Shown here piece after piece: positions 2,381 through 14,243 of a stretch of 16,294 nucleotides of DNA. The position numbers were made by a program, and so were the translations under genes. This stretch comes from Candidatus Methanomethylicia archaeon. Lineage in GTDB: Archaea > Thermoproteota > Methanomethylicia > Methanomethylicales > Methanomethylicaceae. How positions within the stretch are numbered: the first letter of the stretch is position 1; each line of letters starts with the position of its first letter. Location: NCBI GenBank assembly GCA_024464205.1, contig JANHAI010000006.1:1-16294 (forward strand), written 5' to 3'. The notes under the pieces were generated by a model that worked only from the letters and a program-made list of their open reading frames with translations, did no database searches and had not been told where the DNA came from.

Positions 2381-4105
2381 TTACAGCGAGTCAATTACCC
2401 GCTCTATCTCGCGCAGTATCCCCATTATCTTCCCCAAGATCGGGATGGAAAAAGCGATGACTATCAGAAGGATCAACGCAAAGATCAGGAAGTTTTGACC
2501 AGTGACCTCCAGCTCGTAAGGAATCAGCGCCCTTATGAAGTAGAAGGCATTGACCATTAATATGGCTGCAAGCGCCAAGATCACAAGAGATTCCATGAAC
2601 CCCTTCAGCGCCGAGTTCAGCCTGCTGACTGATTTTGCCTCGCCTCCAGAAGCTAGGGAGTATGAGAAATGCCCTATATCTACGCGCAGGCTCAAGATTA
2701 CGAGAGCCGACAACAGGATGACGGCGGCGAGGACTATGAGCTCGAATATGAATGTAAAAGGCGTGTTTAGCACCAGTATTGCCTGCATAAGCATAGAGCC
2801 TATCGTGCCTATGACAACGACAGAAACAGTCTTCTTGAAAATACTAAAGACGATGGTGTTGAAAGGTGAACCCTGCTTCATCCTGTTGGAGATCAGCCGC
2901 CTCAAGCTTGCAGAAGCTCCTTCAAGCGTAGAGAGCATCTGCGATGGGATGAATCGAAGCATGAACCCAACGGGTTTCTCTTCATCCTCGCTCAATTTCG
3001 AGGCCAGGAAGGCCGAGATTATTACGGCAAGGGGGGATGCTATGAATAGCTCTTCCCCAATGATCTGAAGCCTGTAGGCCTCCCTGCTAATGATGAGGCC
3101 AAATTCACTTATGACCATCATGAATATGCCGTATCTCAACGCCTCCTTAATGGGGAACCCCCCAAGAATGCTTGCTCCCGAGAAAGCGACGAATTTGGTG
3201 GCTATTATTGCGAGGGCTATGGCGAGCGAGGAGAGTACCAAGGTAAGATCGTCCAAACGCGGCATGTTCAAGCCAATGGATATGAAGAAAATGACGATGA
3301 AGAGTTCACTTATTGCACTTATCCTCTTTGAGACGCATTCAGGTATCTCAAGCGTTGAGCAGATGATTCCAGCCATGAATGCTCCGATTGCGAATGAGAC
3401 CCCGATGTAGTAGCTGAGCCAGCCGAATCCAATTGTCACCCCCAACAGGCAGAGCGTCAGAACTTCGTCCTCCTCACACCTGGAGACGAAATTGATGACC
3501 CTCGGTAGTAGCTTGATGCCGATAACAAAGACTATTAGCACAACGAAAACCACAAATGAAATTTTGTACATGCCTTCCTCGATTTTCAGCGCGCTAAAGA
3601 CCGCAAATGATGGGAGTAATGAAAGGCCGATCAGCTGCAGTATGTCTTCAACCGTGAGGGCGCCAAGCGTCAGCTTTGACTGTTCACTCTGGAGGATGCC
3701 CTTTCTCTCGAGTGTTTTGAATACAATGGAAGTGCTCGAGCCACAGGAGATGAGGATGAGGACGAATATAGCAATCGAAGGCAGGGCGATTATGATTCCG
3801 AATGTTGCCATCGCGAGCCCAATGATGATGAGCATTGATGTGGAGATAATCATGAGGAGGCTGCCCATACGCCTCAGGAAGCCGAGCTTCATCGTGAATC
3901 CTATCTGGAAGCAGATCAGTGCGATGCCGATTTCGCTGAAGAATACCACTATGTCATTGGAAGGATCGATGAGGTTGAGCAATGGTCCCACGATAAGGCC
4001 GGTTGCTATATAGCCCGCTATCGGGGATATGCCTGCCTTTTTCAGGATCACAGCGATGAATGAGGCAGACAAGATAGTGATAGTGAATACCAACAGTATG
4101 TCCAT
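2381..4105 (-). CDS. Kef-type (CPA2) cation/proton antiporter with extra C-terminal membrane domain
   Basis: An integral membrane antiporter, likely exchanging Na+ or K+ for protons. From the ATG at 4105 it has 574 residues. The first 370 or so form the usual Na+/H+ exchanger fold: GYIATGLIVGP at 31-41, a serine-rich CGSSTSIVF at 121-129 and the ion-site pair Glu153-Asp154 in TVEDI. Residues 371-574 are unusual: a charged linker is followed by about four more hydrophobic segments (near 425-446, 453-473, 503-524, 537-557) instead of the TrkA/RCK nucleotide-binding domain common in Kef proteins. The frame runs upstream to a TTG at 4264 that overlaps the preceding gene, but those 53 residues are hydrophilic and unlike the family, so I prefer 4105. 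It lies downstream of the hydrogenase/complex I-like operon and may share the ion it pumps. Confidence 0.85.
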   Translation of the reverse strand: MDILLVFTITILSASFIAVILKKAGISPIAGYIATGLIVGPLLNLIDPSNDIVVFFSEIGIALICFQIGFTMKLGFLRRMGSLLMIISTSMLIIIGLAMATFGIIIALPSIAIFVLILISCGSSTSIVFKTLERKGILQSEQSKLTLGALTVEDILQLIGLSLLPSFAVFSALKIEEGMYKISFVVFVVLIVFVIGIKLLPRVINFVSRCEEDEVLTLCLLGVTIGFGWLSYYIGVSFAIGAFMAGIICSTLEIPECVSKRISAISELFIVIFFISIGLNMPRLDDLTLVLSSLAIALAIIATKFVAFSGASILGGFPIKEALRYGIFMMVISEFGLIISREAYRLQIIGEELFIASPLAVIISAFLASKLSEDEEKPVGFMLRFIPSQMLSTLEGASASLRRLISNRMKQGSPFNTIVFSIFKKTVSVVVIGTIGSMLMQAILVLNTPFTFIFELIVLAAVILLSALVILSLRVDIGHFSYSLASGGEAKSVSRLNSALKGFMESLVILALAAILMVNAFYFIRALIPYELEVTGQNFLIFALILLIVIAFSIPILGKIMGILREIERVIDSL

Positions 4106-4135
4106 TGCTATCTTCGTAAGTATATGAAAAATGAA

Positions 4136-4147
4136 TGATATAGTTTT
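4136..4147 (-). promoter_or_regulatory. Possible own promoter of the Kef-type antiporter
   Basis: On the minus strand an A-rich stretch followed by CTATAT is centred about 35 bp before the ATG at 4105, in a 148-bp gap after the last operon gene. This would allow the antiporter to be transcribed separately. It is a weak match, based on spacing only. Confidence 0.35.
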
Positions 4148-4253
4148 CGGAGTGTTCCTAGTGCCTTTATCGCGCACCATGAAATGGCTGCTAGGCGAAG
4201 GCGCTTGCTGGGACGTTATGGTATTAAAATCACGGGTCAAATCGCTATAATTT

Positions 4254-5702
4254 TCATGGCACAAAGACCCAGAAGAGGCTTGTAATCAGGTAAGGTAGGA
4301 GGCTTATTGCCACGAGCGAAGATGTAAGAATGGCGAGTGGAAGTATCGTCACCACAGGGGGGTCGCTGGCATTCTGCAACCCCTCCGGAAGCTCGCCAAA
4401 AAGGGACCGCCTCACTGCCCATAGGGAATAGCCAACTGTTATCACGCTGGAAGCGATCGCGATCACCCCTATCGCCAACTTGAAAGCGTCGAATCCTGCG
4501 CCTATCGACGAGGAGATGAAGGCAAGGAAGATGAGGAGCTCACCCCAAAAGCCCAGAAAAGGCGGTATTCCGCAGGCGCTCATGAAAGAGGCGAAGAGTA
4601 TGGAAGAGGTCATTGGCATTTTCCGAGAGAGCCCGCCCATCTCTGAGAGCTTATCTGTGCCCAACTCCTTCCTATACAGGCCGGAGATCATGAAGAGGGA
4701 CGACTTGCTTAGCCCGTGTGCGAGGCTCCAGATCGCGACCCCGAGGAAGCCCAGTGACGAACCCGAAGCGATGCCAATGAACATGTATCCAACTTGGGAG
4801 ATGCTGGAGTAGGCGAGGAGCCTCTTCAGATCATCCTGCTTAATGGCGATGACTCCGCCGTACGATATGTTAATCAGTCCGAATATCGCGAGGGCGGTCG
4901 TCAAGGCATTGTCAGAGAGGATCGATGGCACGAACGACTGGAAGACCCTCATCAAGACATATCCGCCCACAGCCATTGTCGAGAACGACATCACGGCAGT
5001 GAGGGCGTATGGCGCCTCCGAGTAAGTATCTGGGAGCCAGCTATGGAATGGGAAAGAAGCACACTTAACCAAGACTCCCGCAAAGATAAGCGCCGCGCCC
5101 AAATAAACGCCACTTGTGATGGCGTGATCAGTGCCTATTGCAAGCATGTCGAACGTCCCTATAGAACTGCCTAACAAGAGGATGCCGGCAAGGAGGAGCA
5201 GGGCACCGAATTCAGTGTACAGGAAATACTTCAGGGATACAGCGCTGCGGTTTTGCCCTCCCCAAAAGCCGATTATGAGCCACGAAGCGACCAGCATCAA
5301 TTCAAAGAATATGAAGAGAAGAATCAGGTTTGATGATCCAAAGATGCCCAAGAGGGCTGCCACATAGAGCATGAAGAGCGTAAAGAAGCCTCTTTTGACG
5401 GCGCCCCCCTCGGCGAGCACGGCGAACCCTGACACGGCTGCTGAGATACCTAACGATGAAATTATGAATATGAAGGACATGCCATCCGCGAAAAGGCTCG
5501 CCTCGCCCAAAAAAGGTACCGAGAAGAGGAAATAAGATTGGCCCCCGCTGCTGGCTGCATACACAGCGATGGCAAATAAAGCGCAGAGAACGGCCGTGGC
5601 AAAAATGCTGGATGCCTTTTTCGAACGCCTTTCAATAAATGTTGGGATTAAGGACGATGCTAATAGGGCGAGGAGCACGAAGGGGAGAAGGATGTTTTGC
5701 AT
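4254..5702 (-). CDS. nuoN: Antiporter-like membrane subunit (NuoN position, NuoM/NuoN family)
   Basis: One of three Mrp antiporter-like subunits in the proton/sodium-pumping membrane arm. It has 482 residues and about 14 hydrophobic segments. Key charges: Glu134 in FFELM (TM5) and Lys213 in LVKCASFPFHSWLPD (TM7) are present. The TM8 lysine, expected 31 residues after the TM7 lysine, is Ala244 in MAVGGY. Lysine appears again in LAHGLSKSSLF. Sequence style is closer to NuoM than to E. coli NuoN; I name it by its place at the distal end of the operon. A GTG at 5714 would overlap nuoL; the ATG at 5702 has GGTGGTG about six bases upstream and is preferred. Last gene of the twelve-gene operon. Confidence 0.9.
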   Translation of the reverse strand: MQNILLPFVLLALLASSLIPTFIERRSKKASSIFATAVLCALFAIAVYAASSGGQSYFLFSVPFLGEASLFADGMSFIFIISSLGISAAVSGFAVLAEGGAVKRGFFTLFMLYVAALLGIFGSSNLILLFIFFELMLVASWLIIGFWGGQNRSAVSLKYFLYTEFGALLLLAGILLLGSSIGTFDMLAIGTDHAITSGVYLGAALIFAGVLVKCASFPFHSWLPDTYSEAPYALTAVMSFSTMAVGGYVLMRVFQSFVPSILSDNALTTALAIFGLINISYGGVIAIKQDDLKRLLAYSSISQVGYMFIGIASGSSLGFLGVAIWSLAHGLSKSSLFMISGLYRKELGTDKLSEMGGLSRKMPMTSSILFASFMSACGIPPFLGFWGELLIFLAFISSSIGAGFDAFKLAIGVIAIASSVITVGYSLWAVRRSLFGELPEGLQNASDPPVVTILPLAILTSSLVAISLLPYLITSLFWVFVP

Positions 5703-5707
5703 TCCTG

Positions 5708-7732
5708 TCACCACCAGCTGACGAGGATTACCATCAAGGCCAAAATCCCCATCCCGACAAGCATCATGAGCACATTAATATTGAGGTCTCCTGTTTGCAC
5801 TCTTCTTAATCTTTGGGCGAGGGCACCCGCCATGTTCGCAATGCCCTTGTTTGCGTTGTTGAATACCCCTTGTTCGAGAGTTATTTCGAGCCATCCACTG
5901 ACCTTTATGAGGGGGTTCACAAACAACGAGTAATACGCGATGTTGATGTAGTATCTTTTCTGGAGAATGACAGCTATGCGCCTGAATAAGGACAGGCTTT
6001 GCCTAATCGACTGCTGTTTTACGTAGATTAAGTATGCAGGTATGGCGCCCACCAGCAGGCACGATGCCGATGCCAACCCCGTTAGCAATTGAGTTGCGAG
6101 ACCTCCTTCCAGCGTTGCGCCCACCAGGCCAACAACATTCCCATAATATTCAGCCATTAGGGAGACCAGCCATTCCCTTTCAGAATATCCAAATATTCCG
6201 AGGACCACAGTTATCGATGCCAAAATGAGGAAAGGCATCCACATTGCGCGCGATGGGTCCTTCAGGCGGGCAGAAGCATCCACGTCTCCGCTGTATGCTC
6301 TTGGTTCGCCAAAAAAGACCAAGCCCAGCATCCTCACCGTATAGAATCCCGTCAGGGCAACTGTTGCGATCCCGATTATGAAAAGGACTGGGGTTCCAGA
6401 GACTAGCGCCGATTCAAGGATGAGGTCTTTGCTCCAGAAGCCGCCGAAGAGCAATGGGACGCCCATGAGAGACGGTGAGGCAAGGAGCATTGAGGCGAAC
6501 GTTATTGGCATCTTTTTCCTCATCCCTCCCATGTCTCTGAAAAACCTTGATTTGGCAGCATGGATGATCGCGCCAGCAGCGAGGAAGAGCGAAGCCTTGA
6601 ATACAGCGTGGCTCATCAGGTGCATCAGCCCCCCAGTGTACCCAAGATAGAACTCAGCCGCGGTTCCTGCGACCCCCATGGCCAGCATCATGTACCCGAT
6701 CTGGCTTACAGTGGAGTAGGCCAAAACTTTCTTGAGCTCTGTTGATGCTAACGCCTCGGTTGCTGCAACGAATGAGGTTATTGCTCCAATCCAGGCGACC
6801 GCTTGGAAGAAATATATGATCTCCGCTGAGTGCGTCATGGCGATGTAGAAGATCGGGAAGATCCTGGCGACGAGATAGACCCCCGCCTTTACCATTGTCG
6901 CAGCGTGGATCAGTGCGCTGACGGGGCTTGGCCCAGCCATTGCGTCGGGCAGCCACTCCATCAACGGTAGCTGGGCCGATTTCCCGATCGCTCCGAAAAA
7001 TATCAAGAGGGCCGCAGGCAGCAGCAGGTAACCTAGGGACCCGGGAATCGCCCTCACGCTCTCCTGCATGTCTAAGAAGTTGACCGAGCCAAGAGCTAAA
7101 GAGAGGAGGATTATGCCCAGCAGCATCACGAGATCCCCGAAGCGGGTCATCACAAAGGCCTTCATTCCGGCATGAGATGGCGGATAGGCCTCCCTCCCTT
7201 CCCCTACCCATGACTTAAGCCAGTCTTCCTTCGAGTCTCGGTTCCAAAAACCTATGAGGGCATAGCTGCAAAGGCCCACGCCCTCCCAGCCGAACATCAT
7301 CTGGATAAAGTTGTCCGAGAGCGAGAGCAGCAGCATGTTCCCTATGAAGAGGTTCATGAAGAACCAGTACCTTGTCATCGAGGGATCGCCTTCCATATAT
7401 TTTATGGAATAGATCATGATGAGCAGGCTTATCGGCGCAACAACGTTGGCGATTATTATGCTCAAGGGATCGATGAGTACTCCCAGCTGTATATTGCCGA
7501 TTGGTGATTGGGGCAGTTCCAGCCACGGGAACCTGAGATCTATGGGCAGCGGGGCAGACGTCAGCCAAGGGATCATCATCAATGCGAAGAGGGATGCTGC
7601 AGCGCTCAGAGATACCGCATATAAGTCCCTGGCTTTATTGCCGAATTTTGAGGCTATTGGGTTCAGCGCTGAGCCGAAGAGCGGCACGGCCCAACAGAGT
7701 ATTGCAGGATAGTAGTTAATCCATGTGTCCAT
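5708..7732 (-). CDS. nuoL: Antiporter-like membrane subunit NuoL/FpoL
   Basis: The largest antiporter-like subunit (674 residues), normally the distal pump with a long lateral helix at the C-terminus. Conserved charges are complete: Glu150 in FGWEG (TM5), Lys251 in GKSAQLPL (TM7) and Lys282 in MVKAGVY (TM8). The stretch LPDAMAGPSPVSALIHAATM is typical of NuoL. A hydrophilic loop near 163-190, rich in charged residues and tryptophan, interrupts the TM5-TM6 region; I believe archaeal FpoL-type proteins have a similar loop. The C-terminal 150 or so residues include the amphipathic connecting segment and a last membrane span. A GTG at 7741 overlaps the nuoM stop as GTGA; the ATG at 7732 has GGGGTGA five bases upstream and is preferred. 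Confidence 0.94.
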   Translation of the reverse strand: MDTWINYYPAILCWAVPLFGSALNPIASKFGNKARDLYAVSLSAAASLFALMMIPWLTSAPLPIDLRFPWLELPQSPIGNIQLGVLIDPLSIIIANVVAPISLLIMIYSIKYMEGDPSMTRYWFFMNLFIGNMLLLSLSDNFIQMMFGWEGVGLCSYALIGFWNRDSKEDWLKSWVGEGREAYPPSHAGMKAFVMTRFGDLVMLLGIILLSLALGSVNFLDMQESVRAIPGSLGYLLLPAALLIFFGAIGKSAQLPLMEWLPDAMAGPSPVSALIHAATMVKAGVYLVARIFPIFYIAMTHSAEIIYFFQAVAWIGAITSFVAATEALASTELKKVLAYSTVSQIGYMMLAMGVAGTAAEFYLGYTGGLMHLMSHAVFKASLFLAAGAIIHAAKSRFFRDMGGMRKKMPITFASMLLASPSLMGVPLLFGGFWSKDLILESALVSGTPVLFIIGIATVALTGFYTVRMLGLVFFGEPRAYSGDVDASARLKDPSRAMWMPFLILASITVVLGIFGYSEREWLVSLMAEYYGNVVGLVGATLEGGLATQLLTGLASASCLLVGAIPAYLIYVKQQSIRQSLSLFRRIAVILQKRYYINIAYYSLFVNPLIKVSGWLEITLEQGVFNNANKGIANMAGALAQRLRRVQTGDLNINVLMMLVGMGILALMVILVSWW

Positions 7733-7737
7733 TTTAT

Positions 7738-9234
7738 TCACCCCAGCAGCGCGTTAGCTACGCTGTTCACTATGTCGAGAAAGTATGGCAATGCAAGAGT
7801 GACTGCTACGCAGAGGACGGCCAGTACAAGGACCGGGACTAGCATCAGCGGCCCTGCCTCTTTTGCACCATCCGCTTTTACGGGCTTGAAGGAGATCCTC
7901 TGGATCAGCCAAACATAGTATGCAGCTGAGAATAGGCTGTTCAAGATCATGATCACTGCAACGGCCACCATGAGGGGAGCGCTGGACAGGTAGAGAAGGG
8001 ACAGTATGATTATCAACTTTGACCAGAACCCCGCCAGCGGAGGGATCCCTCCCAGAGACAAGGCGCCTAAAGAGAAAGATGCCGCCGAGTATGGCATCCT
8101 TTTAGAAATGCCTTCAAGGTCCACAATGTCTCTGGACTTGATTTCATGGATGAAATTTCCAGAGGCGAGGAAGAGGAGGCCCTTCCCAATGGCATGATTC
8201 AAGATGTGGAAAGCACCGCCCGCGAGCGCCAGATATGCAACATGAATGTCAGCTGGCGAGTGGTATGCCACATAGGCAGCTACGCCAGCGGCTGTGATGA
8301 TTATACCGACATTTGCAATACTGCTGAACGCAAGAAAGCGCTTTATGTCCCTTTGAGGGAAGACGAGGAGATTGGCAACCGTCATAGTAGCGACCCCGAG
8401 GATCAGTAGCATCGTTCCAAAATCATATCGCGCTGGGCCCAGAACGCTGAAGAGTACCCTGAGGATAGAGTATACCCCCGCCTTGATCACGACACCAGAG
8501 AGAAGGGCGCTTATCGGGCTTGGGGCAGCGGGGTGGGCGTCCGGAAGCCAGCTGTGGAAGGGGAAGATTGCTGCGGTGACGCCGAAGCCGGAGATTATCA
8601 TAGCAATCGAAAAATACCCTTCGATCGTCCAAGACGACGGCATCCTCGATGCGATCTCAGCTATGTTCAAGGTGCCTGTCATCCCGTAGAGGATCGAGAT
8701 CCCATAAAGCGCTATCAAGGACCCGATCGTGCTCATGACGAGATATTTGAAGCCGGCTTCAATCGGCTCCCAACGATCCTTCCTGAATGCAACAAGGGCA
8801 TAGGAGGCTATGCACATCAGTTCCCAGAAGACGAAGAGCGTGAAGAGGTCGCCTGAGATCGCCACCCCTGTCAAGCCTGAAATCAGGAGCAGGAGCAGGG
8901 CGTAATATTTCTCAAGGCCGCTGTCCTCGCTCATATATTTTAGCGAATACAGCGTGACAATGATTCCCATTAGCACGAACAGCGAGACCATAAAGAGGGA
9001 GAAGGAGTCAGCGTAGAGCACTACGCCCAGTGGCGGGGGATAGCCTTCGATCCAGTACGATGAAGGGATCAGCCCCGCTGTCTGGAAGAGAGTGAATGCC
9101 ATGAAGGAAAGCGAGGCTATGGCGAAGACCCCGAATAGCGAGCCCCTTTCTTTTACGACTGATGAGATGGCAACGATTCCAGCTGCCCCGACAATCGGGA
9201 AAAGCACCAGATCGAAGAGGCTCAAAGCTACCAC
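7738..9234 (-). CDS. nuoM: Antiporter-like membrane subunit (NuoM position, MrpD/MbhH-like)
   Basis: Second antiporter-like subunit, 498 residues with about 14 hydrophobic segments. Glu138 in FWELM (TM5) and Lys251 in GVVIKAGVY (TM8) are present. The TM7 lysine is replaced by Thr220 in GVTAAIFPFHSWLPD; I checked this in the DNA (codon ACC). HAIGKGLLF supplies a further lysine in the C-terminal half. The sequence resembles MrpD/MbhH and NuoN as much as NuoM, so the symbol follows gene order. The start is GTG at 9234, overlapping the end of nuoK by 7 bp with AGGAGG about five bases upstream; a TTG at 9225 is an alternative. Its stop lies 5 bp before the nuoL ATG. Confidence 0.9.
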   Translation of the reverse strand: MVALSLFDLVLFPIVGAAGIVAISSVVKERGSLFGVFAIASLSFMAFTLFQTAGLIPSSYWIEGYPPPLGVVLYADSFSLFMVSLFVLMGIIVTLYSLKYMSEDSGLEKYYALLLLLISGLTGVAISGDLFTLFVFWELMCIASYALVAFRKDRWEPIEAGFKYLVMSTIGSLIALYGISILYGMTGTLNIAEIASRMPSSWTIEGYFSIAMIISGFGVTAAIFPFHSWLPDAHPAAPSPISALLSGVVIKAGVYSILRVLFSVLGPARYDFGTMLLILGVATMTVANLLVFPQRDIKRFLAFSSIANVGIIITAAGVAAYVAYHSPADIHVAYLALAGGAFHILNHAIGKGLLFLASGNFIHEIKSRDIVDLEGISKRMPYSAASFSLGALSLGGIPPLAGFWSKLIIILSLLYLSSAPLMVAVAVIMILNSLFSAAYYVWLIQRISFKPVKADGAKEAGPLMLVPVLVLAVLCVAVTLALPYFLDIVNSVANALLG

Positions 9235-9524
9235 CTCAGCCTCCTCAGCTTGCGCGCGTCAGAGCTGCCCGTCTGCTTGAAGGCGTTCATGACGAAGGCG
9301 AGCGCAAAGGCAGCAATCGCAGCCCCTATAGCGATGGAGACGAGGACTACAGAGGACGCCAATGGATCGCTTTGCTGGCCGTCCCAAGCGAGCGAGATGA
9401 AGTTGAGGTTGACGCCAGCGCATATTATCTCTATCCCGATGATGATCTTTATCATGTTGTGCTTTGTGGCTATGCAATAAATGCCAATGAGGATGAGGGC
9501 CATGGCTGTCGCAGAGTAGATCAT
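9228..9524 (-). CDS. nuoK: NuoK/MrpC/MbhG-type small membrane subunit
   Basis: A 98-residue protein with three hydrophobic segments that links the antiporter subunits to the rest of the membrane arm. TM2 reads IKIIIGIEIICAGVNL and keeps the acidic residue (Glu32) expected in NuoK. The second conserved NuoK glutamate, in TM3 of the AAAEA type, is replaced: here the stretch is GAAIAAFALAF. A DPLASSVVLVSIAIG segment precedes it, as in MrpC and MbhG. It is therefore intermediate or MrpC-like. The ATG at 9524 overlaps the previous stop as TGATG. The last residues form a basic tail. Confidence 0.88.
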   Translation of the reverse strand: MIYSATAMALILIGIYCIATKHNMIKIIIGIEIICAGVNLNFISLAWDGQQSDPLASSVVLVSIAIGAAIAAFALAFVMNAFKQTGSSDARKLRRLRW

Positions 9525-9838
9525 CAGAGCCTTTCCTCCTCGAATTGCCCATCATCAGCTGGCTCCACAGGGGCGCGCTCTTCAGGGACCTCCCCTGTCG
9601 ATTCTCGGAACATCGATGATATTGCGATGGTGGCAGCAAGCACAATCGTGCCCTGTATGAGGAGGTCGATCCCTCGGAAGGTCCAAATGAATTCGGGGTT
9701 CTCTGAGAATGGCGGCGCATCTGGATGTGGAGGGGAGAGCCCGAACATGGAGGGCAGGAAAGATGCCATTGTAGCAAACAGGGCGAGCAGAATCATCGCT
9801 GCTGAGGCGCGCTGTGCAATCTCACGCTTTCCCTTCAT
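9524..9838 (-). CDS. Small membrane subunit, NuoJ C-terminal half / MbhE-like
   Basis: A 104-residue protein with two hydrophobic segments (about 12-33 and 56-77), separated by a proline-rich loop, and an acidic C-terminal tail. It lies exactly where the second half of nuoJ would be and starts at an ATG fused to the preceding stop (TGATG). The motif FRGIDLLIQGTIVLAATIAI recalls the RGxDxxxE-type segment of MbhE/Mrp subunits as well as the last helices of NuoJ. I infer that it completes NuoJ as a separate chain. Homology is weak at this length, so the role rests largely on position. Confidence 0.65.
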   Translation of the reverse strand: MKGKREIAQRASAAMILLALFATMASFLPSMFGLSPPHPDAPPFSENPEFIWTFRGIDLLIQGTIVLAATIAISSMFRESTGEVPEERAPVEPADDGQFEEERL

Positions 9839-10098
9839 CAGGACCTCCTCCTCTTTTGAATCACGTGAAGCAGCGCAAGGAAGAGCACGGTCACGGCCCC
9901 AGCGTTCACTGCCAGCTGGAAGGCAGAAACGTAGGGGGCCCCGAGCATGTAGAATGCTATTGCGATTGCGATGCTCATTATTGAGAACGATATCGCTGTA
10001 CGCACGAGGTCCCTCACCTCAATCGCCACGATCGCAGATGCTATTATGAGTAAAGAGATCGCATATTCAAGCAGCTCTGGATATGGCAAGCCCGTCAC
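9838..10098 (-). CDS. nuoJ: NuoJ N-terminal half (MbhD-like) membrane subunit
   Basis: An 86-residue protein with three hydrophobic segments, the first half of a normal NuoJ. The core is YMLGAPYVSAF followed by QLAVNAGAVTVLFLALL, matching NuoJ TM3 and the MbhD-type LGAP motif. Complex I usually has a Tyr in the VYAGA turn of TM3; here it is Asn66 (VNAGA). The frame is open upstream to 10203, but that part lies inside nuoI. The GTG at 10098 overlaps the nuoI stop as GTGA and is preceded by GGAGGT, so I use it. Confidence 0.82.
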   Translation of the reverse strand: MTGLPYPELLEYAISLLIIASAIVAIEVRDLVRTAISFSIMSIAIAIAFYMLGAPYVSAFQLAVNAGAVTVLFLALLHVIQKRRRS

Positions 10099-10433
10099 CT
10101 TACCTCCATCGTTTTCCTGTCGTATGACGCGTTCTCGAAATCCTTCGTGAATGATATGGCTTTTGTCGGACAGCTTTCTTTGCATTGACCGCAGAACATG
10201 CACCTGTCAAGATAGAAAACTGGGCGCTTCCCTTTCTGGTCCGTAATGATGGTTATCGCGCTGCTGGGACAATCTTTCTCGCAGATAGTGCACCCGATGC
10301 ATGCCTCGCGCTTCAGCGCCATCTTCCCCCTATACCCATCAGGAATCTGGAGTAAGTCTTTCCCGCCCAGCGGATACCTTAAGGTAGCCTTAGGCTTGAG
10401 CAGACTCCTGCAGGCTTCCAAAAAGATGGACAT
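10095..10433 (-). CDS. nuoI: NuoI/MbhN-type polyferredoxin subunit with two [4Fe-4S] clusters
   Basis: A 112-residue electron-transfer subunit that carries electrons from the donor, probably ferredoxin, to the NuoB-type cluster. Two complete motifs are visible: Cys45-x2-Cys48-x2-Cys51-x3-Cys55 (CIGCTICEKDCP) and Cys78-x2-Cys81-x2-Cys84-x3-Cys88 (CMFCGQCKESCP). YRGK precedes the first, as is usual. The frame extends upstream to 10499 inside nuoH; the ATG at 10433 shares one base with the nuoH stop (TGATG) and has GGAGG eight bases before it, so it is the likely start. No NADH- or F420-oxidising partner gene is present in the window. Confidence 0.93.
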   Translation of the reverse strand: MSIFLEACRSLLKPKATLRYPLGGKDLLQIPDGYRGKMALKREACIGCTICEKDCPSSAITIITDQKGKRPVFYLDRCMFCGQCKESCPTKAISFTKDFENASYDRKTMEVR

Positions 10434-11407
10434 CAGATGAGCCTCCAAATCAATGTCAGCGCCACTTGCAGGAATGAGAGGGGGATCAGGTATCGCCAAG
10501 CGAATGCGACCATTTGATCTATCCTCACCCTCGCGAATATGCCCCTGATTATCGTCAGTATCAGCAGTATTGCTACAGTTTTCAGAAGGAAGTAAACCGG
10601 GAAGGCTATGCCCTCAGCCCAATGGGGGGCCAATCCCATGGGCCCTCCAAGGTAGAGCGTTGCTGCGAGTGCGGACATGAAGACAAGCTCGAGGTTCCTT
10701 GCCATGCGTATGAGCGCCAACTTCCTCCCAGAATATTCAGTCATCCATCCTGCAACAATCTCCTGCTCAGCGTCTGGGATATCAAAAGGGATCCTCTCCA
10801 ATTCAGCTTGTATCGCTACAAGGAATATTGCGAAGCCTAGAAGCTGGGGACCGAATATGTTCCACCCGTGAGAGGCCTGCCAAGATACGATGGCAGAGAC
10901 CTCAATCGATCCGCTTGCGATGCAGCACCCAGCAATTGAGAGCATCAGCGGTATCTCGAAGCCAAGCAAGAGGAGGACGGCGCGCTCTGCGCCAAGCAAT
11001 GGATACGGGCTCATTGATGAAAACCCCGCCAAGAAGATCAAGATGCAGAAAAGCGTCATCGCTGCTATGGCAAAGATCACATCCCCGGTGAAGGAGATCA
11101 CCCCTGATTCTCCTGCCACTGGCAGTATGAGCATGACCGTGAGCATCAGGGCGCACATCAGCAGCGGGACGGAATTGAATATCTTTTTGTCGCTGTATTT
11201 TGGCGTTAGATCCTCTTTTTTGATGAGCTTTATGAAGTCGGCGATTGGCTGGAGCAAACCCAACGGCCCTGTGTAAAGCGGACCAATCCTCCTCTGCATC
11301 GCTGCGTACAACTTTCGATCCACCCACTCGAACAGGAAAGAGAGGAGTATGAAGAAAAGGAAGCCAGGGAATATGAAGAGTTGGAAGGTGGATGAGATAA
11401 CGTCCAA
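10433..11407 (-). CDS. nuoH: NuoH/FpoH/MbhM-type membrane anchor subunit
   Basis: A 324-residue membrane protein with about eight spans that joins the catalytic arm to the pumping arm. Diagnostic stretches: RKLYAAMQRRIGP (31-43) with GLLQPIADFIKL following, GAERA (139-143) and RIPFDIPDAEQEIVAGW (205-221) followed by TEYSG. The start is TTG at 11407; GGAGG lies eight bases upstream and no ATG fits. RIPFDIPDAE is shared by complex I and group 4 hydrogenases and does not separate them. It follows the D subunit after 14 bp. Confidence 0.95.
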   Translation of the reverse strand: MDVISSTFQLFIFPGFLFFILLSFLFEWVDRKLYAAMQRRIGPLYTGPLGLLQPIADFIKLIKKEDLTPKYSDKKIFNSVPLLMCALMLTVMLILPVAGESGVISFTGDVIFAIAAMTLFCILIFLAGFSSMSPYPLLGAERAVLLLLGFEIPLMLSIAGCCIASGSIEVSAIVSWQASHGWNIFGPQLLGFAIFLVAIQAELERIPFDIPDAEQEIVAGWMTEYSGRKLALIRMARNLELVFMSALAATLYLGGPMGLAPHWAEGIAFPVYFLLKTVAILLILTIIRGIFARVRIDQMVAFAWRYLIPLSFLQVALTLIWRLI

Positions 11408-11421
11408 CGCGTGCGCCTCCG

Positions 11422-12555
11422 TTACGATGATTTGACGACCTCGTTTCTTGAAGTGCAGCTGAAGCAGGGATCTATGGATGCCAATATTACCGGGACGTCA
11501 GCGACGTTCACGACGTATTTCCCTTTCGACCTAAGCATCTCCCTCAGGGGCGCGAGGTTCGAGAAGGTCGGGGTCTTCACCTTGTAGCGGTACGGCTTGT
11601 CGCTCCCGTCTGCCCTTAGGAAATGTACCAGCTCCCCCCTTGGCGCCTCTACCCTAGTTAGGAAGTCCCCAGCAGGCACTCTCCTTGGGAGGCGCTGGAG
11701 GAGTGGGCCGGGAGGCAATTTTTCTATGCAATACCTTATCATGTTTATGGACTCCAGCGTCTCATCAAGCCGGACGATGATCCGTGAGAAGGCGTCGCAC
11801 CCGTCGTCTGTCACTACCTTGAACGGCACTAGGCTGTGAGCCGCGTAAGGGTCGTCAGCCCTTGCGTCCATGTCCACTCCAGAGGCGCGCAGTGTTGGTC
11901 CGACAGCATTCAGCTGGATGGCGGCATCTCTCCTGAGGATGCCTATGCCCATTGTCCTTTTCATGACCGTCCTTTCAGAAAGGACGACCTTTTTATAGAA
12001 TTTCACCCTTTCTTCGAGCTTGTCCATACCTTTTTTCATCTTGTTTGCGACTTCAGGCGTCATGTCCCTCTTGACGCCCCCGATAGCATTGTACGACGTG
12101 GTTATTCTGTTACCAGCGAATTCCTCCATTAGGTCGAGCGATATCTCGCGGTCTAGCCAGATATACATGAAGAATGTGTCGAACCCAATCTCGTGCGCAG
12201 CAACCCCCAACCAAAGAAGGTGGCTCTGGATCCGCTCGAGCTCTTCAGCAATGACCCTGAGGTATTTCGCTCGCTCTGGGATCTCCTTCCCATGGAGGCC
12301 CTCGACGCATTGACAGAAGGACAGGGTATGGGCAATGTTGCATATGCCGCAGATCCGCTCGATCAGGTAGAGATCTTGGACGTAAGTCCTATATTCAGCA
12401 GCCTTCTCCATGCCCCTATGGTTGTAGCTGACGTCAAGTGCCACATCTACAACGTGCTCCCCTTCTACTTTTAGGTCGAGGAGCACAGGCTCCTTGAGCG
12501 CTGGGTGCTGCGGGCCAAGAGGGAGGTTGAATATTCGCTCATAACTCGATGACAT
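11422..12555 (-). CDS. Group 4 [NiFe]-hydrogenase catalytic (large) subunit, NuoD/FpoD/MbhL homologue
   Basis: A 377-residue catalytic subunit of the NuoD/hydrogenase large-subunit superfamily. Both nickel-binding pairs are intact: Cys69 and Cys72 in ERICGICNIAH, and Cys364 and Cys367 in DPCFSCTSR. I confirmed both in the DNA (TGC codons). Complex I NuoD and, as I recall it, Methanosarcina FpoD have lost them. The N-terminal loop is GPQHPALKEP, hydrogenase-like, instead of the GPQHPSTHG type of complex I. The EAPRGELVH and GSDKPYR segments are well conserved. Reaction inferred: proton reduction to H2 with electrons from ferredoxin, or the reverse, coupled to ion pumping. A seven-residue tail follows Arg370. 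ATG start one base after the C-subunit stop. An automated label of NADH-quinone oxidoreductase subunit D would be misleading. Confidence 0.93.
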   Translation of the reverse strand: MSSSYERIFNLPLGPQHPALKEPVLLDLKVEGEHVVDVALDVSYNHRGMEKAAEYRTYVQDLYLIERICGICNIAHTLSFCQCVEGLHGKEIPERAKYLRVIAEELERIQSHLLWLGVAAHEIGFDTFFMYIWLDREISLDLMEEFAGNRITTSYNAIGGVKRDMTPEVANKMKKGMDKLEERVKFYKKVVLSERTVMKRTMGIGILRRDAAIQLNAVGPTLRASGVDMDARADDPYAAHSLVPFKVVTDDGCDAFSRIIVRLDETLESINMIRYCIEKLPPGPLLQRLPRRVPAGDFLTRVEAPRGELVHFLRADGSDKPYRYKVKTPTFSNLAPLREMLRSKGKYVVNVADVPVILASIDPCFSCTSRNEVVKSS

Positions 12556-12556
12556 G

Positions 12557-13018
12557 TCATGGCCCCCTCAATGGCGCAGGCGTCTCTGGTTGGAATGATT
12601 TCCTGAGCGGGAATGTCCCCTTTGGCCATTCTTCAGGGAGCATGAGCCTAGAAGAGTCTGGGCAGTTCCTGAATTCGACCCCGAAAAGGTCATGGATCTC
12701 CCTTTCATGGAAGGATGCAGGCGGCAGGATGTCCGAGACAGAGTCTATGGAGGGCGTCTGGGCAGGGAGGATCACTTTTACGGTCACTATAGCGCGCCTT
12801 CCGATCTGGAGCAGGAGTTCCAAGTTTTCGCCTGAATCGATGCAGGTCATTGCAGCGATGTGCGCGAAGCCTTTCTTTTGGAGAGTTTCCACAACGGAAT
12901 GGTAGGCTTCTGCTGAGACTGTGACTTGAGCCCTGCGCTCGCAGATCACCTTTGAATCAATTACCCCTTTAATGCCTTTCATTTCCATGACAATCGAATC
13001 TACGGAGGGATCCATCAT
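12557..13018 (-). CDS. nuoC: NuoC/30-kDa subunit of the complex I/hydrogenase family
   Basis: A 153-residue peripheral-arm subunit that packs against the D and B subunits and has no cofactor of its own. The signature is REIHDLFGVEF, then PDSSRLMLPEEWP and FPLRKSF near the C-terminus. It is separate from D, unlike the fused NuoCD or HycE/HyfG. ATG start at 13018 overlaps the B stop as ATGA; a second ATG follows immediately. Length is typical of archaeal NuoC/MbhK-type proteins. Confidence 0.93.
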   Translation of the reverse strand: MMDPSVDSIVMEMKGIKGVIDSKVICERRAQVTVSAEAYHSVVETLQKKGFAHIAAMTCIDSGENLELLLQIGRRAIVTVKVILPAQTPSIDSVSDILPPASFHEREIHDLFGVEFRNCPDSSRLMLPEEWPKGTFPLRKSFQPETPAPLRGP

Positions 13019-13455
13019 TTTTCCTCCTTGATCTTTTTGACGAGCTTGGTTATGCCGTCGATTATTGCCTCTGGTTTAGGAGGGCAACCAGGCACATAAG
13101 CATCTACAGGCAGCAAGGAATCCAGGCCCGCATATACATTGTAACATGCACCCTTGCCGCAGTTAGAGAAGACCCCGCCACTGATACAGCAACTGCCTAC
13201 CGCAACTACGAATTTCGGCTCAGCCATCTGCTCGTAAACGCGTATGAGGCGATCCTTGACCTGCCTCGTGATGGGGCCTGTAACCATCAGGACGTCAGCA
13301 TGCCGTGGACTCCCTTTCAGGAATATGCCAAACCGCTCAATGTCGTAGCGGGGAGTCAGCGTCGCCACGACTTCAATATCGCAGCCATTACAGGAGCCGG
13401 TATTGAAATGCAGCACCCATGGGCTCCGCCCCATTGCCCAGCGCTGTACTCCCAT
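13015..13455 (-). CDS. [NiFe]-hydrogenase small subunit, NuoB/FpoB/MbhJ homologue
   Basis: A 146-residue subunit holding the [4Fe-4S] cluster next to the catalytic site. Ligands are visible as Cys22 and Cys25 in GSCNGCDIEV, Cys89 in VGSCCISGG and Cys124 in PGCPPKP. The first pair is the CxGC spacing of group 4 hydrogenase small subunits, whereas complex I NuoB has adjacent cysteines. This agrees with the intact [NiFe] site of the D subunit. ATG start with AGGAGG about ten bases upstream; four bases separate it from the nuoA stop. Confidence 0.93.
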   Translation of the reverse strand: MGVQRWAMGRSPWVLHFNTGSCNGCDIEVVATLTPRYDIERFGIFLKGSPRHADVLMVTGPITRQVKDRLIRVYEQMAEPKFVVAVGSCCISGGVFSNCGKGACYNVYAGLDSLLPVDAYVPGCPPKPEAIIDGITKLVKKIKEEK

Positions 13456-13459
13456 AGGT

Positions 13460-13786
13460 TCATCGCCTCCTCCTCAAGACTGGAAACGAATAAAGAGCGA
13501 GAGCTGCCAGCGCCAGGTAGGCCAATGGTAGGACAGGGGATAGCGCATTATAGGAGAATATGAGCAATACGGCGATTACATCGAGGACTAGGAAAGCGAA
13601 TGCGAACTCGAAAATGTGTATGCTGACTGGTGTCCTCTCGGCGTTACCCTTCTCTCCGCAGACGTATGGCATTGCCTTCTCTTCATTCGGTCGCTTCGGT
13701 GGGTTGGCAATCAGGAACAGGGCTAGAACGGTCAGCAATGCTGCTATGAACGCAAACAAGGGATTGGCAAGCAGTTCTGCGAGCAT
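13460..13786 (-). CDS. nuoA: NuoA-type membrane subunit
   Basis: A 108-residue protein with three hydrophobic segments. MPYVCGEKG between TM1 and TM2 and FEFAFAFLVLDVIAVLL in TM2 match NuoA. The Asp of the family's DxE motif is kept but the Glu (E. coli Glu81) is Ile. NuoA belongs to complex I/Fpo and is not normally listed among group 4 hydrogenase subunits, so its presence matters here. Two starts are possible: ATG at 13819, and ATG at 13786. I prefer 13786 because it begins at the membrane segment and has GGTG four bases upstream. First gene of the operon. Confidence 0.88.
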   Translation of the reverse strand: MLAELLANPLFAFIAALLTVLALFLIANPPKRPNEEKAMPYVCGEKGNAERTPVSIHIFEFAFAFLVLDVIAVLLIFSYNALSPVLPLAYLALAALALYSFPVLRRRR

Positions 13787-13830
13787 ATGGCACCGAATTT
13801 CAGCTGAAGCCTTTGGCATATATGTTTTTC

Positions 13831-13929: not shown

Positions 13930-14205
13930 TCATTTCAGTATCCGGAAGTCCTGCAGATCGCTCTTGGGCGGCTCCCATTTGATGCTCAGGTTCTCCACGC
14001 TGCAGTTAGGAGGGCCGATCCTGAGCTCTTCGATCAGCCTCAGGAGGTTTGATTTTTCGCCTTCCGCCACGACCTCCACCGTCCCGTTGGGCTTGTTCTG
14101 GACATAGCCTGTGAGAGACAGTTTCCTTGCGATCCTGAACGTGTAATACCTATAACCGACGCCTTGGACTACTCCTGAAACGTTGATCCTGATTCTCGCG
14201 TTCAA
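13930..14205 (-). CDS. acyP: Acylphosphatase
   Basis: A small cytoplasmic hydrolase of carboxyl-phosphate bonds (acetyl phosphate, carbamoyl phosphate and similar). From the TTG at 14205 it has 91 residues, the usual length. The phosphate-binding loop GVVQGVGYR ends in catalytic Arg19, and GYVQNKPNGTVEV carries catalytic Asn37; both family signatures are complete. No ATG is available. A TTG at 14229 would add eight residues but lies before the transcription start predicted from the TATA-like box at 14244-14249. The gene stands alone between the operon promoter and trmI; I see no functional link to either. Confidence 0.93.
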   Translation of the reverse strand: MNARIRINVSGVVQGVGYRYYTFRIARKLSLTGYVQNKPNGTVEVVAEGEKSNLLRLIEELRIGPPNCSVENLSIKWEPPKSDLQDFRILK

Positions 14206-14243
14206 GGGGTGCGCCCCAATGAGTATCAATAACGCTCACTTAG

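Follow-up and report, generated by a model that had tools for sequence, protein, structure and literature searches.

The window, by which we mean the whole stretch of 16,294 nucleotides analyzed here, is contig C106 of a metagenome-assembled genome (MAG G000; 1.17 Mb, 216 contigs, 78.5% complete). Twelve complex I-type genes were found to be packed on its minus strand from position 13819 to position 4254, in the order A-B-C-D-H-I-J-J-K-N-L-M, with overlaps or gaps of only a few bases between neighbors (Table 1), and they appear to be intact. All 11 Fpo/Nuo-type subunits are included in this single cluster, and the number of genes is twelve because J is encoded by two ORFs. A Pfam or NCBIfam family was assigned to 11 of the 12 genes, the exception being J2, for which searches of both libraries returned no match. 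The I gene was called from a TTG start that overlaps H, and its real start probably lies further in. No FpoFO or NuoEFG genes were seen among the window ORFs, those at the ends of the window being read from the sequence, nor was any gene for NADH or F420 input. There are no further genes within the twelve-gene run, and thus no Na+ module there.

Table 1 Features of the window, with the evidence for each assignment (tree support as SH-aLRT for N, L and M).
Feature	Positions	Strand	Evidence
A (NuoA/ND3-like, 119 aa)	13460..13819	-	PF00507 2.8e-7; PDB matches; loop alignment
B (small [4Fe-4S] subunit)	13015..13455	-	hydrogenase-type GSCNGCDIE; profile matches; B tree
C (30 kDa type)	12557..13018	-	PF00329 6.8e-27
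D ([NiFe] large subunit, 377 aa)	11422..12555	-	L1 RICGICNIAH, L2 DPCFSC; trees
H (membrane anchor)	10433..11407	-	PF00146 6.4e-88; residue alignment; H tree
I (two [4Fe-4S] cluster motifs)	10095..10499	-	ORF list; profile matches
J1 (MbhD / N-terminal NuoJ-like)	9838..10203	-	PF13244 2.4e-9; PF00499 2.5e-9
J2 (second half of J)	9524..9838	-	position conserved in relatives
K (NuoK/MrpC-like)	9228..9524	-	PF00420 1.1e-22; residue alignment
N (NuoN counterpart)	7738..9234	-	antiporter tree, clade with E. coli NuoN (99)
L (NuoL counterpart, 677 aa)	5708..7741	-	antiporter tree, clade with E. coli NuoL (96)
M (NuoM counterpart)	4254..5714	-	antiporter tree, clade with E. coli NuoM (99)
CPA2/Kef-type Na+/H+ exchanger	2381..4264	-	
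Stand-alone acylphosphatase	13930..14229	-	

To the left of the operon come an exchanger gene and an Lrp/AsnC regulator, with a putative PEP synthase gene at the edge. The right side holds genes for an acylphosphatase, for a tRNA methyltransferase and for ATP synthase (the PEP synthase and the last of the ATP synthase genes were read from the sequence). A PEP synthase-like gene also follows the corresponding locus of M. mesodigestus (L230), past a run of N. The exchanger gene abuts the M gene; a similar gene was not found in the other compared loci, many of which end before that place, so the exchanger is probably not part of the complex. The acylphosphatase gene is located directly upstream of the operon, and an acylphosphatase match about 1.4-2 kb from the D gene was also observed in the congeners G001, G002 and G003. 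Since the first domain of HypF is an acylphosphatase as well, a link of the window gene to hydrogenase maturation is conceivable.

The [NiFe] site and the membrane arm

The D gene is an ATG-initiated ORF, opposite to which the plus strand is interrupted by stops. Cys69, Cys72, Cys364 and Cys367, which the initial annotation had read as a complete [NiFe] site, are invariant in an alignment of the window D with 10 homologues of 53-76% identity. The L1 motif (CGICNIAH) matches the pattern quoted by Loh et al. (PMC7886697), in the part of that paper available to us, and the L2 motif (DPCFSCTSR) fits except for Ser369 at the non-ligand [DE] position, which is variable in relatives too. Of the 186 rows that qualified as D-like (60 bits or more and 300 aa or more, including 2 typed PDB references), 170 carry all four cysteines, or 130 of 146 when each distinct gene is counted once. 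One of the rows counted as metal-free, here and in the 51-row tree below, is L180 (G063), with Phe at the first cysteine position; this group 4 D (L180/L208, G063:C6) keeps the other three cysteines and is accompanied by a hydrogenase-type B. D homologues interrupted by a single internal TGA or TAG codon were also observed in related genomes (G016:C32, G006:C2 and G039:C1), which may reflect a pseudogene, an error or recoding.

The best PDB matches of D were HycE of formate hydrogenlyase (267 bits) and MbhL (253 bits), followed by Nqo4 (224 bits). A match at 174 bits was 6u8y_L, which is named NADH dehydrogenase subunit D in the PDB and which we take to be the D-type subunit of Pyrococcus MBS. 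The best NCBIfam models were NuoD (340 bits) and FpoD (321 bits), both under their cut-offs of 360 and 600. The B subunit carries the motif GSCNGCDIE, as in hydrogenase rows; in the same alignment, two adjacent cysteines (CC) were found in the 8 B rows of Nuo/Fpo and in L200, which is metal-free.

All 14 PDB matches of the A subunit up to an E value of 1 were NuoA/ND3 chains, the best being Nqo7 (1.8e-4). The loop of A reads CGE where complex I has a YECG-type loop, with the CG kept. This subunit had been proposed as a distinguishing mark of the enzyme, a proposal that does not hold because an A homologue was detected in 68 of the 80 named loci with a related D, bacterial loci included. The 12 loci without an A match were L045, L046, L051, L055, L061, L063, L097, L102, L104, L109, L113 and L117, in several of which the contig ends there.

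The three antiporter-like genes, which follow each other in the order N-L-M, were compared in a tree of 70 proteins, built by a quick search with SH-aLRT support only and containing several long branches, including that of E. coli NuoN. Each window gene grouped with a different one of NuoN, NuoL and NuoM (Table 1), which indicates that three differentiated pumps, as in complex I, are encoded by the operon. Most of the expected channel residues were present. In H, E151, D209, E214, E216 and E224 are kept, with Asp212 at the position of E. coli Glu216; in L, E153, R200, K254, H279 and K438 are kept. The equivalent of Glu36 is kept in K, with Ile70 in place of Glu72. In N, E138, K251 and K406 are kept and Thr220 stands in place of E. 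coli Lys217, a position at which Thr or Ser is common to the four other Hfo rows of the alignment and the metal-free G077. In M, E138, K217 and E392 are kept and Ala248 stands for E. coli Lys265, where the other archaeal rows have Ala or Gly. Without the equivalents of Lys217 in N, Lys265 in M and Glu72 in K, the pumping stoichiometry may differ from that of complex I.

Phylogenetic placement and the published Hfo class

The D subunit was placed in trees of 51 and 57 rows. The 51 rows were thinned by identity from the 186 rows (146 distinct) and included an Ehb-like row; for the 57 rows, L002 and L180 had been left out as long or odd and others added. In the 51-row tree, the window fell in a clade of six rows (100/97) nested in a group of 43 rows (100/99); this group also holds Nuo/Fpo (4g plus Nuo/Fpo), but not MbhL, Hyf or the Ehb-like row. 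In the 57-row tree, the 18 metal-free Nuo/Fpo D rows formed one clade (100/100) with the window outside it, and the window D adjoined that of Ca. Methanomethylicus mesodigestus (100/98) in a nine-row clade (100/95). The window D and the MbhL/Hyf rows were on opposite sides of a branch with support of 100/96. The B and H trees also placed the window on the hydrogenase side, outside Nuo/Fpo, with B again next to M. mesodigestus, and the concatenated B+D+H tree agreed (100/100). Together with the pump counterparts, these placements bear out the initial description of the enzyme as a hydrogenase that has almost the whole architecture of complex I, and whose D and B branch with hydrogenases.

Ion-pumping hydrogenases are generally regarded as the ancestors of complex I. 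The operon, which had been suggested to be a possible evolutionary intermediate, may or may not be one, as several placements of Nuo/Fpo among the hydrogenases were not rejected: Nuo/Fpo held sister to Hfo in the D tree (p-AU 0.63), joined to bacterial 4g (p-AU 0.385) or joined to Bathyarchaeota-type 4g (p-AU 0.12). The free 57-row tree put Nuo/Fpo with the Mbh/Hyf rows without support (47/44). Based on the group of 4g plus Nuo/Fpo in the 51-row tree, which stands apart from Mbh, Hyf and Ehb, it is likely that Nuo/Fpo is attached to 4g rather than within Mbh/Hyf.

The initial annotation left open whether a class of this kind was already known, and it has in fact been described. An 11-subunit Fpo-like [NiFe] hydrogenase was named Hfo and placed with group 4g by Loh, Herve & Brune in 2021 (PMC7886697), who, in the part of the paper accessible to us, list the cluster of Ca. 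Methanomethylicus mesodigestum as almost identical in organization to Hfo, report Bathy-6 homologues as 4g, argue that Hfo closes the gap between hydrogenases and complex I, and propose ferredoxin/H2 chemistry. Earlier, in 2018, a CxxC motif had been noted in nuoD of Aigarchaeota GMQ bin_10 (PMC6053391, available passages), and the D of Ca. Wolframiiraptor sinensis isolate GMQ_bin_10 (L053) fell into the clade of the window in the 57-row tree. On the strength of these two papers, as far as their text was available, the window is a further species in the published Hfo class, and the kind of enzyme was already described in 2018-2021.

The window shares with the Hfo of PMC7886697, as presented in the available text, the subunit set, the L1 and L2 motifs, and a cluster without FpoFO or NuoEFG; it differs in the species, in the division of J into two ORFs and thus twelve genes, and in the CPA2-type exchanger gene that follows. 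Its D is 75-76% identical to the D of M. mesodigestum, its nearest relative in the tree. The 'nuo' clusters of Aigarchaeota GMQ bin_10 and JZ bin_10 are likewise complex I-like with a CxxC in NuoD, but come from a different host, and the accessible passages of PMC6053391 report nuoK and nuoN as absent, with mrpC and mrpD instead. Fpo/Fqo and Nuo have in common with the window an A of NuoA type and the counterparts of its L, M and N. Unlike them, the window has the [NiFe] cysteines, a B with CxxC and not CC, D, B and H in another clade, a K without the Glu72 equivalent and an N without the Lys217 equivalent. Mbh of Pyrococcus and Hyf/Hyc of E. coli share with it a [NiFe] large subunit of group 4; an A homologue was not found in the Hyf and Hyc loci of E. 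coli, whereas the window has one, no Mbh chain was among the PDB matches of the window A, and the window run is without the Na+ module. Hfo combines a hydrogenase active site with a three-antiporter pump arm and a NuoA subunit, which makes it a natural object for testing the replacement of the metal site by a quinone site.

Host, proposed function and alternative readings

The closest genomes, G001-G003, belong to the same genus and have D proteins 75-76% identical to that of the window, and the host appears to be a different species of Ca. Methanomethylicus from M. mesodigestus V1. The MAG carries mcr genes. The initial annotation had proposed the hyp genes as a check, and they were recovered in part: hypD (C92) and a HycI-type protease (C91) were found by library matches and hypC on C92 was read from the sequence, but full-length hypF was not found in the 78.5%-complete MAG. 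It is present at full length in the congeners G001 and G003, and hypF scored above the cut-off in 8 of the 11 genomes searched. PF00346 matches were located on four contigs of the MAG and correspond to three D genes, because one of them is split, with an identical stretch repeated at the ends of C117 and C200, as judged by eye. Two other group 4 systems are carried by the MAG, one on C13 and one split over C117/C200. Judging from sequence, we take the C13 cluster, which adjoins ATP synthase genes, to be Ehb-like, and the split D is presumably HycE-like. On C189 lies the terminal part of another [NiFe] large subunit, probably of group 3.

A second, divergent mcr cluster was also observed in the MAG (L126, G000:C212, 941-4787, minus strand), the McrA of which shares about 41% identity with the family's ordinary McrA and recurs at 77-82% identity in 3 more of 22 family genomes (L234, L235 and L236). 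Its neighbors were read from the sequence as mcrB, mcrG, a corrinoid protein, a methyltransferase, a sodium:solute-type transporter and an AMP-ligase. An assignment of this McrA as an alkyl-CoM reductase was considered and rejected on its PDB scores, the best matches being ordinary MCRs (474 bits) versus ethyl-CoM reductase (362 bits). Fragments of a further mcrA were found on C64 and C60.

The D cysteines, the CxxC of B, the placement of D, the NuoN, NuoL and NuoM counterparts and the hyp genes support that the operon very probably encodes an energy-converting [NiFe] hydrogenase of the Hfo type (Fpo-like, group 4g-like) in a Ca. Methanomethylicus methanogen. It is most likely ferredoxin-linked and ion-pumping. 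Electrons of reduced ferredoxin, the putative partner, would enter through the iron-sulfur clusters whose motifs are found in I and B, and protons would be reduced to H2 at the [NiFe] site of D, for which the ligands are in place. The energy released would drive ion translocation via H, J and K, and then N, L and M, in which most channel residues are conserved. In the host, which has at least some of the maturation genes, the enzyme would probably re-oxidize ferredoxin derived from heterodisulfide reduction and feed the ATP synthase. The direction, the ion and the stoichiometry are those that we infer, and none of the group 4g enzymes had been biochemically characterized as of 2021, according to the portion of Loh et al. 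that we could consult (PMC7886697).

The doubt that weighs most concerns this direction. Energy-converting hydrogenases are reversible, so the reverse direction is possible, and the same enzyme might work mainly in that sense, with the ion gradient driving H2-dependent ferredoxin reduction for biosynthesis. Such a role was argued by Loh et al. for the termite-gut Bathyarchaeia hosts (PMC7886697, accessible text). We regard it as rather unlikely here, because Ca. Methanomethylicia are predicted to be H2-dependent methylotrophic methanogens (PMC10033731, in the available part), and because the MAG also has the Ehb-like cluster on C13, Ehb serving carbon fixation in Methanomada according to the sections of PMC9635834 at hand.

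The readings under which no such hydrogenase exists are far less probable than a reversed Hfo-type enzyme. A respiratory Fpo/Nuo-like complex that regained its cysteines secondarily and does not handle H2 would agree with the membrane arm of complex I type and with NuoD and FpoD being the best NCBIfam models for D, although both scores fall below the cut-offs. The window nevertheless lies outside the clade of the 18 metal-free D rows, the B, H and concatenated trees agree, and B has CxxC instead of CC, so a gain of cysteines inside Nuo/Fpo is not borne out and appears very improbable. We give as little credence to a metal-free complex resembling the sulfane reductase MBS, to which the match of D with 6u8y_L could point: MBS is not known to have the full cysteine set, whereas all four ligand cysteines are kept in the window, and HycE and MbhL score much higher. 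Least probable of all, to the point of being nearly negligible, is an assembly chimera in which hydrogenase B and D genes were joined to a complex I membrane arm. The contig does come from a MAG of 216 contigs, but the same twelve-gene order was found in L131, L132, L049, L053, L081 and L213 and partly in congeners, A-B-C-D are consecutive in congeners (L133 and L134) and in other genera, which argues against a false junction across 11422-13455, and a 97%-identical D is present on other contigs (P0001).

Apparently mosaic complexes in family f22

Outside the window, three loci of the Thermoproteota family f22, L200 (G077), L227 (G171) and L228 (G169), were found to carry D and B of the respiratory type without the metal site. 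G077 has the gene order of the window; the four ligand positions of its D are occupied by N-D-W-D, and its B carries the CC pair. The A+C+I and the B+D+H concatenations of G077 each grouped with Nuo/Fpo (100/100), and holding them with Hfo was rejected (p 8e-5 and 3e-48, respectively). The N, M and L proteins of G077 and G171 were instead found among Hfo rows, in clades of 7 rows (100/99), 6 rows (97/95) and 6 rows (99/97), respectively.

Holding the mosaic N, M and L with the archaeal Nuo rows was rejected (p 2e-7, 1e-4 and 6e-6); the archaeal Nuo rows alone were not rejected for N (0.09) or M (0.38), and for L they already formed one side of a branch (70/93). Holding the mosaic proteins with all Nuo rows gave a clean test for N only, because all Nuo rows alone as one clade were rejected for M (p 2e-4) and borderline for L (0.06), and the test was therefore repeated with the archaeal Nuo rows only. 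A clade of all Hfo rows plus the mosaic proteins was recovered for N (100/99) and M (93/90), and was not recovered for L (p 0.31). For the mosaic J1+K, the Nuo placement was rejected (p 0.007) and the Hfo placement was weak (50/86).

The pattern of G077 is repeated in G171 (74% identical D), where the two halves lie on a 481-kb contig as divergent half-operons. G169, with a D of 62% identity, carries the front half and J1 up to the contig end, and only its D was placed in the tree. A COX1 gene was observed about 8 kb downstream of the A-I half in G171 and in none of the other 7 of the 8 f22 family genomes.

By these comparisons, the complexes of G077 and G171 are predicted to combine a front half of complex I type, A-B-C-D-H-I, with a pump half of Hfo type, J-K-N-L-M, and the simplest reading would be that the pump block was exchanged where I meets J. 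With the front half going with complex I and the pump half with Hfo in two genomes, pump modules seem exchangeable. It is a tentative proposal, which we hold to be possible and not the favored outcome, that no living hydrogenase is more closely related to respiratory complex I than the Hfo lineage, and that the J-K-N-L-M arm moved as a block, cut at I/J, between hydrogenases and respiratory complexes. The mosaic complexes may be new, and they would open the modular origin of complex I to direct testing.
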